Origin: Candidatus Gallionella acididurans
GTDB taxonomy: Bacteria; Pseudomonadota; Gammaproteobacteria; Burkholderiales; Gallionellaceae
Reading direction: 5' to 3'
Assembly: GCA_001577345.1 (NCBI GenBank)
Contig: LSLI01000025.1
Coordinates: forward strand, 1 to 32,869
Length of the DNA stretch: 32,869 nt
Positions 2,959-6,720 of this stretch are shown one piece after another. The notes below the pieces were generated by a model. The model ran no database searches, was not told the origin of the DNA, and saw nothing but the letters and a program-made list of their open reading frames with translations. The position numbers were made by a program, and so were the translations under genes. Position 1 is the first letter of the stretch. Each line of letters starts with the position of its first letter.

Positions 2959-3016
2959 TCCGATGATTCCATTTTCGTTTGGCGGATTCAACTCTGAAGT
3001 GCAACTTTTGTAAGCG

Positions 3017-3045
3017 ACTCTAATACTGATGCTAGGGGGCGTCAA
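3017..3045 (-). promoter_or_regulatory. Sigma70-like promoter of the FecR-barrel gene
   Basis: On the minus strand TTGACG (3045-3040) and TAGAGT (3022-3017) are separated by 17 nt. Transcription would start near 3010, leaving a leader of about 50 nt before the ATG at 2958. Confidence 0.55.
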
Positions 3046-3153: not shown

Positions 3154-3417
3154 TGGTTGATGAAATCCGAACCCACTGACGTCAGTATCGATGACCTTGC
3201 CAATTATCCCAACCAGACCGTAGCCTGGTATGGCATGCGCAATTACCACTCAACTGTCGGTGCGCGTTTAAAAATACCCAGGTGTGCGCGCTGTAGGAAT
3301 ACCCAGAGTGCAGGCAGCCTAAAGTTGGCTGGCCTGTTGATAAGTGTAGCGCATTTGCATGGAAGAAGTCGCGTGGGGAGTGGCCTTAACGACTCTCCCC
3401 ACGCGGCTGATTTTTAG
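3154..3417 (+). pseudogene. Broken EVE-domain gene (thymocyte nuclear protein 1/DUF55-like)
   Basis: The frame from 3154 reads WLMKSEPTDVSIDDL and continues to WYGMRNYH near 3249. This is the well-known start of bacterial EVE-domain proteins (YWLMKSEP..SIDDL....W.GVRNYQARN), which are small nucleic-acid binding proteins of about 150 residues. The aromatic-cage neighbourhood at the start is present. After RNYH the sequence loses all family similarity, and the frame ends at 3417. The normal ATG-x-Tyr start is replaced by TTTGCT, so the only upstream starts are unrelated. Deletion plus frameshift is the likely cause. A remnant, not a working gene. Confidence 0.65.
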
Positions 3418-3446: not shown

Positions 3447-3488
3447 TAATGGTGCGGAGAGAGGAATCGAACCTCCGACCTACGCGTT
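3447..3488 (-). repeat. 42-nt duplicate of the 3' half of tRNA-Thr (att-like scar)
   Basis: These bases match 6642-6684 (the tRNA-Thr 3' half plus its CCA and three following bases) with a single one-base gap, in the same orientation. Identity begins at the nucleotide immediately 3' of the anticodon and runs through the anticodon stem, variable loop, T-arm, acceptor strand, CCA and the TTA after it. This is the classic footprint of tyrosine-recombinase integration into a tRNA 3' end, with this copy as the distal attachment site. No integrase is visible between the two copies. Confidence 0.75.
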
Positions 3489-3825
3489 CCAAGGAATCGA
3501 CACCTGCATATTTCCTCGCATATTCAGCAGCGTGTAGCACCTCAGATTTATAGTGACATCAGTTTGATGGCGCTCTCCATCGAAAAGTTGATGCCACTCT
3601 CATGCCGCAATTATACAGGCCATGGTGACCGGCATCTTGGTTACGTACAGTACCAGCTGCTGTCGACAAGTCTAAAGGAGAAATTCCGCCTGCTTGAAAA
3701 TGCAAAATAGAGAGTAGACTGCCTGGTGGCAATAGCACATATTCTTGTAACCAGTTGGGTTAGCCTTGATAGCTGTGCATCTTTGAAGGAAGTGCCTTGA
3801 GCAAGATGCGAACGAACAAGACCCG
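3489..3825. other. Gene-free stretch inside the islet
   Basis: No coding frame with recognisable similarity is present. A minus-strand frame runs through the tRNA scar (VLHAAEYARKYAG near 3535-3500), which could be the tail of a lost gene but matches nothing I know. AAGGAAG at 3786-3792 is the only ribosome-binding-like site and lies far from the kinase ATG. The kinase promoter should be here, but I cannot place it with confidence. Confidence 0.4.
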
Positions 3826-5001
3826 ATGCGGAAAGCTGCCGAAGCGCAACTTGCCTACGCACCCAAGCCGAAGCCGCGCTCGGCCAAGGAACTCCTGCAC
3901 GAACTTCAGGTACACCAGATCCAACTGGAGATGCAGAACGAAGAGCTGCGGGGTGCGCAGCTCGCGCTGGGAGAATCGCGCGACCGTTACGTGGATCTCT
4001 ATGAATTCGCTCCGGTCGGTTATCTCAGCCTCAACCACGACGGGATAATCGACGAGATCAACCTTACCGGTGCCACGCTGCTTGGAATGGAGCGCAACAA
4101 ACTACCCCATCGTCGCTTCGCCCCTTTTGTGGCCACTGCGGATCGCGATCGCTGGCATCGCCATTTTCTGAACGTTCTGGCACGCGACAACACATTGACT
4201 TGCGAACTGGCATTTCAGCACGGTGAAGAGCCTTACTTTTACGCACGTCTGGATTGCTTGTGCTTGAAACAAGTTGGCAAGGAATCCGTGGTTCGCATCG
4301 TGCTGACCGACATTACCGAACGCAAAACCATCGAGCGCAAACTGCGCGACCTGACCGCGCATCTACAGACGGTACGCGAGCAAGAAAAAGCCAGTATCGC
4401 ACGCGAAATACACGACGAACTTGGCGGCTCAATGACGGCCATGAAAGTTAAAATCCACCAGTTAAAAACCGACATATCCAATGATATTAATGCGCTGGCA
4501 CTGCTTGAACAAGTCGAGTCAATGTCGCAACTGATCGATGGCGCGGCGGGCATCACTCGGCACATCATTGCCGATTTGCGCCCAACCATACTTGACTATC
4601 TCGGACTGCTGGCGGCGATTGAATGGCAAGCCGCCCAATTTCATGAACTTACCGGCATCGAATATCTGGTGAACTGTATCGGAGATAAGGGCAATCTCGA
4701 CAAGCCGCACTCGATCGCGCTGTTCCGCACCCTTCAGGAAGCGCTCACCAATGTAACGAAGCATTCCAGAGCTTCCAGAGTGGAAATTGAATACCACCAT
4801 GGCGACGATGAGGTGATGCTGTCCGTCTGCGACAATGGGTGCGGCCTCTTGGAAGAAGATGCCGTCAAATTGGGATGCTATGGCATTCTTGGTATAAATG
4901 AGCGCGTTGAGCAACTGGGTGGCACAGTCAAATTTGACATTCCGCCTGGCGGCGGGCTTTGCTTGACGGTGATTGTTCCCCTACCGGAACGGAGCATCTA
5001 A
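3826..5001 (+). CDS. Cytoplasmic PAS-domain sensor histidine kinase, NarX/DegS type (HisKA_3)
   Basis: This 391-residue kinase has no transmembrane segment, so it should sense a cytoplasmic or diffusible signal. Residues 22-52 form a coiled coil (ELLHELQVHQIQLEMQNEEL), and about 53-170 form a PAS domain (FAPVGYLSLN) ending in the PAC motif TDITERK. Residues 185-250 are a HisKA_3 dimerisation domain with the phospho-acceptor H196 in AREIHDELGG. Residues 295-388 are an HATPase_c domain with N-box N309 (EALTNVTKHS) and G-boxes DNGCG (336-340) and GILGINERV. All catalytic elements are intact. The stop overlaps the start of the response-regulator gene (TAATG), so the pair should be translationally coupled and functional partners. 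The start has a poor ribosome binding site; an in-frame TGA at 3784 limits any extension. Confidence 0.9.
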   Translation: MRKAAEAQLAYAPKPKPRSAKELLHELQVHQIQLEMQNEELRGAQLALGESRDRYVDLYEFAPVGYLSLNHDGIIDEINLTGATLLGMERNKLPHRRFAPFVATADRDRWHRHFLNVLARDNTLTCELAFQHGEEPYFYARLDCLCLKQVGKESVVRIVLTDITERKTIERKLRDLTAHLQTVREQEKASIAREIHDELGGSMTAMKVKIHQLKTDISNDINALALLEQVESMSQLIDGAAGITRHIIADLRPTILDYLGLLAAIEWQAAQFHELTGIEYLVNCIGDKGNLDKPHSIALFRTLQEALTNVTKHSRASRVEIEYHHGDDEVMLSVCDNGCGLLEEDAVKLGCYGILGINERVEQLGGTVKFDIPPGGGLCLTVIVPLPERSI

Positions 5002-5642
5002 TGGCAGGCATGATCCGTATTCTGCTCGCCGACGACCACGCCATGGTGCGGCGTGGATTGGCGCAAATTCTGGAACAGAGTGGCGGGATGGAAATCGTTG
5101 CCGAATACGCCAATGGTATTCACGCGCTGAACTGGCTTTGCGACAACGACTGCGATGTGGCGTTGCTCGACATTGCCATGCCCGGCATGAACGGCATTGA
5201 CCTGCTCAAGCAGCTTACACAGATAAAACCAAAATTACCCGTGCTGATTATCACGGCCTACCCAGAAGATCAATTCGCCGTGCGTCTCATCAAGGCTGGC
5301 GCAGCCGGATATTTGAACAAGGACTGTGCGCCGGAAGAAGTGGTGAATGCGGTGCGTAGCGTGGTGAGTGGCAAGATGTACATTAGTACGGCAGTGACCA
5401 AAATGCTCACCAACGCAATCAGGCTGCCGGATGGAAAGCTCACGCACGAAATCCTATCGACTCGTGAATATCAGATTTTTTTGCTGTTCGCTTCAGCCAA
5501 AAGCATATCTGAAATTGCCGCCACCTTATCACTGAGCGTGAAAACCGTCAGCACCTACCGCACCCGCATTCTGGAGAAAATGCAACTGCGCAACAACCTT
5601 GAGCTGATGCAGTATGCGGTTGACAAAAATCTCTTGAATTAG
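5001..5642 (+). CDS. NarL/FixJ-family response regulator, partner of the adjacent kinase
   Basis: The start chosen is the ATG at 5001, whose A is the last base of the kinase TAA; GGAACGGAG lies just upstream. The 213-residue protein has a receiver domain (residues 1-125) with the acidic pair in LLADDH, the phospho-acceptor D57 in VALLDIAMPG, the conserved Thr in IITAYPED and the Lys in GYLNKD. A C-terminal LuxR-type helix-turn-helix (about 145-208) contains LSTREYQIFLLFA, SISEIAATLSLSVKTVSTY and RILEKM. Phosphorylated by the kinase, it should bind DNA as a dimer. Likely targets are nearby, for example the outer-membrane gene at 5828, but this is inference. The most similar described regulators would be UvrY/NarL-like, and the signal is unknown. 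Confidence 0.9.
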   Translation: MAGMIRILLADDHAMVRRGLAQILEQSGGMEIVAEYANGIHALNWLCDNDCDVALLDIAMPGMNGIDLLKQLTQIKPKLPVLIITAYPEDQFAVRLIKAGAAGYLNKDCAPEEVVNAVRSVVSGKMYISTAVTKMLTNAIRLPDGKLTHEILSTREYQIFLLFASAKSISEIAATLSLSVKTVSTYRTRILEKMQLRNNLELMQYAVDKNLLN

Positions 5643-5673
5643 CCGCAAACAGCCATTCTGTAACACCTGCGCC

Positions 5674-5694
5674 CTGTCAGTAAAACACTGACAG
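5674..5694. repeat. Perfect 8-bp inverted repeat after the response regulator
   Basis: CTGTCAGT and ACTGACAG flank AAAAC. There is no T-run, so it is a weak terminator candidate. Its symmetry and position between the regulator and the barrel gene make it a possible regulator binding site. Confidence 0.5.
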
Positions 5695-5827
5695 CGAAGG
5701 TTACCGCTTCCTACATCACGCTCAGCCAAACCCCGATTTATCTTCCGCGTGCAAGGGAACATCATTCCCGTGCGGATTTTGCACTTCACTTGGTGCTTGA
5801 GGCCGCCAGTGATTAATAAGGTGCATC

Positions 5828-6379
5828 ATGTTAATACCGGGAACCGGTAAGTTTGGTCGTGCCACAACACAGGCGAAGGCAGTAATAAATTCCCACTTTT
5901 CAAACAGATGGATAGTTTGTATTTTTCTCGCCTCCATTTTCAACACATCAATCGCGGAAACTTTTGCAACTGTTGAGTCAAAACCGATTAGCGAGCTTTG
6001 GTTAAACGTGGGATTTTATTCTCGCCACTTTCAGAAAGAAAAGGGATTTAATAACGACAATTACGGGTTGGGGGGCGAGTACCGCTATTCAACAGTAAGC
6101 TCCATTACTTTTGGCGAATATTACAACAGCGTTAAACAAACCACACACTACGCAGGCTGGTATTGGCGACCGCTTGAAATTGGACCTGTCCGTTTGGGAA
6201 TGGCTGCGGGAGGTATGGACGGGTATCCTAATATGCGTAGCAGTGGCTGGTTTTTAGCAGTTATACCTACAGCCAGCATTGAGTATAAACATGTTGGAGC
6301 CTATCTGATGTATATCCCAAGTTACCAAGACAAACTATATGGAGTGATTTCTTTGCAGATGAGAATCATGGTGTTCTGA
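5828..6379 (+). CDS. Small outer-membrane beta-barrel protein, possibly PagP-like
   Basis: ATG 5828 has AAGGTG about 5 nt upstream. The 183-residue product has an unusually long n-region, a hydrophobic core (WIVCIFLASIF) and probable signal cleavage after NTSIA, residue 43. The mature part alternates polar and aromatic/hydrophobic residues over about eight strands (ELWLNVGFYSRHF, YGLGGEYRYS, HYAGWYWRPLEIG, VRLGMAAGG, VGAYLMYIPSY, GVISLQMRIMVF). It ends in Phe, as outer-membrane barrels do. The order of short motifs (an early His, a later x-Ser after a Tyr-rich strand, P-L, Y-x-x-YIP, Q-M-R at the end) recalls PagP lipid A palmitoyltransferases. However, the catalytic Asp-Ser is Asn-Ser here and the His context differs, so enzyme activity cannot be claimed. 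It follows the two-component genes within the tRNA-bounded islet. Confidence 0.65.
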   Translation: MLIPGTGKFGRATTQAKAVINSHFSNRWIVCIFLASIFNTSIAETFATVESKPISELWLNVGFYSRHFQKEKGFNNDNYGLGGEYRYSTVSSITFGEYYNSVKQTTHYAGWYWRPLEIGPVRLGMAAGGMDGYPNMRSSGWFLAVIPTASIEYKHVGAYLMYIPSYQDKLYGVISLQMRIMVF

Positions 6380-6601
6380 TTGGGGTAAAGCAAATAAAAT
6401 GTTGTTCAATCTCCACGAACACACCAGCGTGATGTTCAGGACGGAATCTGACCATCATCAATTCCAGCATCAAAGGCAACAGCCGTCTCAAATAGGAAGC
6501 CGCATACCGTGGTAGACCAACGCGCTTTTTGCATCGAAAAGTGATGTGGCTTTTGATGTCGGTCTCAACACTGCAGAATCCGTGGGGCTGCGGTCTAGCG
6601 T
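6380..6601. other. Intergenic stretch between the barrel gene and the tRNA terminator
   Basis: No convincing gene. A short plus-strand frame at about 6513-6611 reads DVAFDVGLNTAESVGLRS, which has barrel-like alternation and may be the last strand of a lost outer-membrane protein gene. The rest shows nothing I can identify. Confidence 0.35.
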
Positions 6602-6638
6602 AAAAAGAAAAAGGGGCTACACACCGTGTAACCCCTTT
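6602..6638 (-). terminator. Rho-independent terminator of tRNA-Thr
   Basis: On the minus strand a 13-bp stem (AAAGGGG plus six further pairs, one of them G-U) with a 3-nt loop is followed by TTTTTC and TTTTT. It begins just downstream of the tRNA CCA. Confidence 0.85.
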
Positions 6639-6644
6639 ATTTAA

Positions 6645-6720
6645 TGGTGCTGGAGAGAGGAATCGAACCTCCGACCTACGCGTTACGAGTGCGTTGCTCT
6701 ACCAACTGAGCTACTCCAGC
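6645..6720 (-). tRNA. tRNA-Thr (anticodon CGU), CCA encoded
   Basis: A full cloverleaf reads on the minus strand. The acceptor strands are GCTGGAG/CTCCAGC with discriminator A and an encoded CCA at 6647-6645. The D-loop has AGCTCAGTTGGTAGAGC, the anticodon loop ACTCGTAAC has anticodon CGT, and the T-arm contains GGTTCGATTCC. It reads ACG codons. It carries its own promoter and terminator. Its 3' half is duplicated at 3447-3488, so it appears to have served as an integration site. Confidence 0.95.

Follow-up and report, generated by a model that had tools for sequence, protein, structure and literature searches.

A tRNA-Thr(CGT) gene of Candidatus Gallionella acididurans and a copy of its own 3' half enclose three genes, coding for a histidine kinase (HK), a response regulator (RR), and a barrel-type protein. 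How did this islet (positions 3447 to 6644) come to lie there, and can it still move? We analyzed the 32,869-nucleotide stretch of DNA that carries it (the window), which is the entire contig C25 (GenBank LSLI01000025.1) of the draft genome G000 (3.43 Mb, 316 contigs), and compared it with a set of 76 genomes, G000 included, from this genus of iron oxidizers. We conclude, with a probability of about 0.92, that the islet is a decayed integrative element from a family that targets tRNA-Thr(CGT) in Gallionella, and that it lost its integrase, kept its two ends and its three-gene cargo, and is probably immobile. A tRNA-targeted element reduced to a signalling cargo is what the original prediction, made from the sequence alone, had proposed. 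It gains support from the fact that the islet shares both ends, and their order, with integrase-bearing elements of another genome (G103) and retains a 38-nucleotide trace of an integrase gene. The coordinates are collected in Table 1; gene names without a named family match were assigned by eye.

The tRNA-Thr gene and its displaced 3' half

ARAGORN detected no tRNA in the window besides tRNA-Thr(CGT). The 3' half of this gene is repeated in the same orientation at 3447 to 3488. In an alignment of 43 columns with a single gap, this segment is 98% identical to 6642 to 6684 (E=2.2e-13 against the own genome), and the HK, RR, and barrel genes lie between the two copies in the order and orientation that had been predicted. 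The copy had been described as starting just 3' of the anticodon. The relic reaches into the anticodon loop: the repeat continues to 3493 with two mismatches, and its ungapped part covers 38 nt at 95% identity (3456 to 3493 versus 6652 to 6689). Because the loop part of the fragment is present, with two substitutions, we set the extent of the attachment site (att) relic at about 3447 to 3493. The tRNA fragments of G103 and G070 match the tRNA of the window perfectly over 45 nt, anticodon loop included, and the G103 tRNA-Thr itself differs at one position from its 45-nt fragment.

A closer match to another tRNA, which the original prediction had named as telling against integration, did not turn up. 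The sole further match of the fragment in its own genome has 88% identity over about 33 nt inside a tRNA-Pro, and we ruled out another tRNA as the better match, tRNA-Thr(CGT) being the best place genome-wide. The predicted difference in composition from the flanking core did not hold as a mark of the islet. The GC content of the islet (50%) falls between the values of its left (48%) and right (60%) flanks. The left part of the contig departs from the core in composition, yet composition marks no islet boundary, and we rejected it for that use.

The acceptor 3' strand has the same 1-nt deletion (CTCCGCACCA) in the G000 fragment, in the distal fragment of locus L064 (G022), and in the in-place tRNA-Thr(CGT) of G026 (L080). 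The window fragment may preserve the old tRNA end of the clade.

The islet has the ends of full-size elements

At the same tRNA, contig C15 of G103 carries two elements in tandem, 36.4 and 42.2 kb in length. Each of them reads, from the tRNA outwards, tRNA-proximal end (LE), integrase, distal end (RE), and att, and the order of LE, att, and RE in the islet agrees with theirs. Beyond the last att of G103 comes native sequence, 85% and 80% identical to the islet-free sites of G017 and G008, respectively, where it runs straight into the tRNA. A PF00589 protein is encoded beside the second LE, the integrase next to the first LE is 86% identical to it, and the array contains six PF00589 matches, some of which are fragments. 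We scanned 20 of the 74 open reading frames (ORFs; at least 90 aa) of the array against Pfam. These 20 include an integrase of a second type, SRAP, an ImpB/MucB-type polymerase and a B-type DNA polymerase, genes for restriction and N6-methylase, and GGDEF-EAL; neither a relaxase nor a type IV secretion system protein was among them. The islet agrees with the G103 elements in its target, LE, RE, att, and the 5' end of the integrase and differs from them in that they are 36 to 42 kb long, with integrases and with restriction, SRAP, and ImpB/MucB-type polymerase genes.

The second integrase type is present in both G103 elements (C15 76155-77300 and 117338-118483), with 35 to 36% identity to the first type, and an RE copy without att lies at 108469-108591 of the same contig. 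These two observations suggest nested or composite elements.

The LE of the window, whose start at 6499 was set from the match in G110, is 94% identical to that of G110, 88% and 85% to those of the two G103 elements, 85% to that of G072, and 77% to that of G006. LE matches were found in 8 of the 76 genomes; short, terminator-like matches in G017 and G104, away from tRNA-Thr, were excluded from the LE count, and those in G019 (70 nt, 74%) and G076 (truncated) were found by local comparison only. RE is preceded by a 45-nt tRNA-Thr fragment, identical to the window tRNA, in three of its four places outside the window, and by none at G103 108469.

Could LE be native sequence that follows this tRNA, with the distal fragment a tRNA duplication unrelated to integration and the three genes an ancestral part of the chromosome? 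LE does stand directly after the tRNA in five genomes (G000, G110, G103, G072, and G006) and weakly in G019, 35 nt of it are found on the far side of an inserted block in G022, and the LE of G110 lies near a possibly native porin; it was G006, G019, and G022 that had suggested to us that LE is native DNA. The G103 array overturned this idea, since LE occurs there twice, adjoining both the tRNA and the internal att, with RE across each att. Moreover, in 12 of 32 relative loci a native gene lies no more than 200 bp from the tRNA, the full-genus search placed LE at tRNA-Thr in few genomes, and an integrase trace lies beside LE. We therefore find this explanation scarcely credible. An integron attC-like origin of LE was looked at by eye only and dropped.

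Both ends contain repeats that might bind the integrase. The LE and RE of the window have a common 12/13 match (TGCATCGAAAAGT and TCCATCGAAAAGT), which none of 100 dinucleotide shuffles reached. Near it, a TTGATGnCnCTCT-like motif, picked after inspection of these same sequences, occurs, with at most two mismatches, in five of six LE copies at the aligned position (the G006 match lies at a different one) and in all five RE copies as a pair spaced 24 bp apart. We propose the TTGATGnCnCTCT-like repeats as candidate integrase arm sites.

The integrase gene is reduced to a 38-nt trace

The absence of an integrase had been predicted, together with the advice to look for pseudogene traces of one, and both points proved sound. 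PF00589 has no match on C25, all 16 matches of G000 being on other contigs, and a tblastn search of the window with the G103 integrase gave nothing better than E 0.65. A remnant of 38 nt is nevertheless left, identical at every position to a segment of G103:C15 (103520-103557) that overlaps the 5' end of the integrase ORF 102398-103549. Its minus-strand translation is LLPLMLELMMV, and part of it may be leader rather than coding. In G072, the tRNA is followed by LE and the trace (97% identity in the trace segment), then by an integrase that matches only to about residue 133, with a macA-like gene beyond, an arrangement that shows comparable decay.

We then looked for a cognate integrase elsewhere in G000 and found none among the matches listed, which have at most 40% identity to the G103 integrase. 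The closest of them by E-value (36% over 100 aa) is a fragment beside a tRNA-Pro, and the others have 26 to 40% identity over parts or all of the G103 integrase, the highest being 40% over 66 aa. On contig C5 of G000 (5550-5852), a truncated integrase directly downstream of tRNA-Pro(CGG) is perhaps another island relic.

Tyrosine recombinases require matching overlap sequences. With two substitutions in the anticodon-loop part of its attR, the islet has probably lost the ability to be excised, and because its own genome yielded no cognate integrase and the crossover region is mutated, it is probably immobile.

Table 1. Features of the islet and of the tandem elements of G103. Coordinates refer to the window unless G103:C15 is given.
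Feature	Coordinates	Strand	Basis or remark
attR relic, displaced 3' half of tRNA-Thr(CGT)	about 3447..3493	minus	1-nt deletion in acceptor part, two substitutions in anticodon-loop part
RE, distal end of element family	3489..3654		81-87% to three places in G103:C15 and one in G070:C148 (76 genomes searched)
Candidate arm-type repeat in RE (TTGATGGCGCTCT)	3564..3576	plus	putative function
Candidate arm-type repeat in RE (TTGATGCCACTCT)	3588..3600	plus	putative function
Cargo block common to G076 (Gallionella sp. clean1820)	3704..6500		93.1% over 2804 aligned columns
PAS-HisKA_3-HATPase histidine kinase (HK)	3826..5001	plus	PAS_9, HisKA_3, HATPase_c
Response regulator (RR), LuxR type	5001..5642	plus	Response_reg PF00072, GerE PF00196
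183-aa barrel-type protein, distantly PagP-like	5828..6379	plus	127 homologues; no own Pfam match
38-nt remnant of 5' end of element integrase gene	6450..6487	minus	38/38 identical to G103:C15 103520-103557
LE, tRNA-proximal end of element family	6499..6644		sequence matches in relatives
Candidate integrase arm-type repeat in LE (TTGATGTCGGTCT)	6553..6565	plus	putative function
Hairpin with T-run inside LE, terminator-like for tRNA transcript	6613..6635	minus	read by eye; largely conserved in LE alignment
tRNA-Thr(CGT)	6645..6720	minus	ARAGORN; target gene, 3' half restored by element (attL core)
tRNA-Thr of G103	G103:C15 140859-140934
First G103 element, from tRNA	G103:C15 LE 140718-140858; integrase 138331-139512; RE 104460-104615; att 104410-104454
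Second G103 element	G103:C15 LE 104270-104408; integrase 102398-103549; RE 62200-62340; att 62150-62194

The cargo has been inherited with the chromosome

The closest relative of HK lies on contig DAICZN010000054.1 of Gallionella sp. clean1820 (G076), which shares the cargo block with G000. The divergence of the block is close to that of the core, where thiO is 92.8% and a 2.8-kb flank 91.9% identical between the two genomes, and the alignment is unbroken to window position 6500, across the junction of the barrel gene with the integrase remnant. Synonymous divergence (dS) is 0.15 to 0.18 for the cargo and 0.17 to 0.21 for thiO and ispH, and the ratio of nonsynonymous to synonymous divergence (dN/dS) is 0.24 for HK, 0.13 for RR, 0.34 for the barrel gene, 0.19 for thiO, and 0.09 for ispH. 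Since the remnant-barrel junction is common to both genomes, the integrase deletion predates their split, and since cargo and core have diverged alike and the junction is shared, the cargo was inherited vertically. The cargo genes are thus inherited with the chromosome and kept by purifying selection.

We then searched 101 genomes for the barrel gene, which gave 18 places besides the window's own, and examined up to 5 kb on each side of them, contig permitting. HK and RR accompany the barrel gene in 1 of the 18 (G076:C121, at the same tRNA) and are not beside it in the other 17; in G008, a distant RR-domain match (33%) lies about 4 kb from the barrel gene. When the stretch from RE to the kinase start was searched in the 76 genus genomes, its cargo side matched in G076 only. 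The original prediction had proposed looking for the same cargo at other tRNA sites and had regarded the trio at an ancestral, non-tRNA locus as contrary evidence; neither was seen among these places.

Might the islet nevertheless be a non-autonomous element that still moves, with an integrase supplied in trans by a related full-size element? Both ends are kept, with their candidate arm repeats, and the genus does have full-size elements with a matching integrase. Against this stand the lack of a cognate integrase among the own-genome matches listed, the two substitutions in the loop part of attR, where the G103 and G070 fragments match the tRNA throughout, the equal divergence of cargo and core since the G076 split, and the finding of the trio, among the barrel places examined, at tRNA-Thr only. 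We consider continued mobility in trans very improbable.

The tRNA-Thr locus in relatives

We oriented 32 loci from relatives around tRNA-Thr(CGT). Twelve of them are islet-free, with an HlyD-type (macA-like) or cation-efflux gene next to the tRNA; several of the remaining 20 run into a contig end or have different genes at this position. An empty site in close relatives, a check that had been suggested, was therefore at hand, and the trio is also missing from G110, which by its thiO identity (92.6%) belongs to the closest two of the genomes compared. There, the tRNA is followed by LE, an OprB porin, a methyltransferase, and a cation-efflux gene, whose name rests on the related L081 protein. 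The block from the porin to the cation-efflux gene is 95% identical to contig C57 of G000, which is broken upstream of a PAS kinase also present in G076. Because the C57 sequence upstream of this kinase is interrupted by IS-like sequence, we consider the left side of the islet to be rearranged in G000. The tRNA-Thr(CGT) locus is an integration hotspot.

Three other loci have inserts with shorter repeats. At L064 (G022:C81), tRNA-Thr is separated from a 20-nt tRNA fragment by a block of 13.4 kb that contains genes of a type I restriction system (HsdM identified by Pfam, the others by eye); none of the 10 PF00589 matches of G022 lies on this contig, and the LE piece beyond the block is of terminator size (35 nt). 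At L078 (G015) and L094 (G003), inserts of 1.7 and 4.6 kb, respectively, lie between tRNA-Thr and a 21- to 22-nt fragment from the T-loop side, and no LE, RE, or G103-type integrase was found at either locus. We rejected the assignment of these three inserts to the islet family, as their repeats are about 19 to 22 nt at the T-loop side, G015 and G003 lack LE and RE, and G022 has only the terminator-sized LE piece. The short inserts of G015 and G003 are possibly a second element type. By eye, several relatives have a similar end (...ctaaa) just before the tRNA.

Proposed history of the islet

From the G103 arrays, we infer that a full-size ancestor with a PF00589 tyrosine integrase would have inserted by recombination between its attP and the anticodon-loop region of the tRNA gene, supplying a new tRNA 3' half and moving the old one to the far end. 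An internal deletion, whose scar is observed, would then have reduced the integrase gene to 38 nt near LE and eliminated any other element genes, and the same deletion would have joined this remnant to the HK-RR-barrel cargo; the order of these events is presumed. The deletion occurred before the G076 split, the cargo was then passed on vertically under purifying selection, and today the islet is probably fixed in the chromosome.

Several points weigh against this history. No full-size element carrying HK, RR, and the barrel gene was found, and the cargo block of the window has no match in the tandem elements of G103:C15. In G076, the tRNA and the cargo are separated by 125 bp of different sequence, and on the kinase side this genome has neither RE nor att and instead a truncated LE and a second integrase remnant. 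In G000, att is followed by neither LE nor native sequence but by what looks by eye like an EVE-like gene fragment, and the porin-to-macA block lies apart on contig C57, where it is broken by sequence judged IS-like by eye. The arm-site motif was chosen after the fact, and the search for a cognate integrase covered four listed matches of nine in a draft of 316 contigs. Because the ends of the G076 islet are rearranged, the common ancestor of the two islets is reconstructed in part; the end structure of G076 fits a former tandem array.

A broader scenario, which we consider unlikely, is that tRNA-Thr elements in Gallionella repeatedly lose the integrase while keeping both ends, and that an incoming element of the G103 type re-mobilizes cargo-only islets or carries them along by accretion, so that the locus would act as a ratchet that imports cargo and then domesticates it.

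Relation to known systems

A cis-mobilizable element (CIME) has lost its integration and transfer genes and kept attL and attR (PMC5704250). The islet is alike in that it lacks an integrase, has both att sites and both ends, has kept its cargo, and has relatives with tandem elements at the locus, and unlike in that its attR is mutated (two loop substitutions and a 1-nt deletion) and that a conjugative or mobilizable descent and cis-mobilization are only putative. Apart from its putative conjugative descent, the islet resembles a CIME.

Islander maps tRNA-integrated islands by the tRNA gene (tDNA) and its displaced fragment and requires an integrase ORF (PMC4383910). As in such islands, a tRNA and a displaced 3' fragment in the same orientation flank the islet, and the repeat ends in the anticodon loop, a crossover subsite described in that source. 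The 1-nt deletion in the acceptor part of the fragment can be compared with the small deletions 3 bp upstream of the discriminator that the same source reports in certain islands. The islet has no integrase ORF, only the 38-nt remnant, and would be missed by Islander because candidates without an integrase ORF are rejected. It also lacks the recombinase of tycheposons, which are tRNA-bordered elements with a tyrosine recombinase (PMC10872708). tRNA fragments left by integration are a common source of false tRNA calls (PMC9897764). A literature search on Gallionella genomic islands at tRNA genes with an integrase returned no title about such islands.

The locus provides a cleanly dissected case of a tRNA-targeted element turning into ordinary chromosome, in which full-size parents can be set beside a relative whose integrase is truncated and two sister genomes that share the integrase-less product. 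It shows a class of islands that integrase-requiring detection methods discard, and a recurrent integration hotspot in Gallionella.

The cargo genes

HK and RR score with NarL/UhpB/GacA-type families, below the curated cut-offs. Most likely, the two proteins sense a signal and set the expression of target genes, possibly including the barrel gene. A kinase-regulator pair with 53% and 64% identity occurs in G007, with no barrel gene in the 4.2 kb examined.

The barrel protein of the window matched no Pfam family at E≤10, and none of the 120 homologues listed, of 127, has a precomputed Pfam domain. Within the family, 12 of 52 aligned members match PF07017 (PagP) at E≤1, with a best E of 2.1e-4. 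A single-sequence search of PDB sequences gave nothing at E≤10, and the family profile gave two matches (E 0.56 and 1.5), neither of them a PagP. The catalytic set of PagP is His-Asp-Ser, and H67, N100, and S101 are kept in the 52 aligned members. As a guess, the protein could have a lipid A-modifying or related outer-membrane role.

Other features of the contig

The EVE-domain-like gene fragment beside the att relic (by eye) spans positions 3154 to 3248, and similar sequence is present in many genus genomes, mostly at 75 to 82% identity. A 34- to 37-nt sequence at 2981 to 3017, which may be an IS end, has copies of 94 to 100% identity in G022, G010, and G020. Farther left, a repeat of about 150 bp (953 to 1104) recurs in several genus genomes, often at contig ends, and a lipoprotein-like gene at the end of the contig (4 to 692) is 93% identical to a copy on contig C64 of G000.

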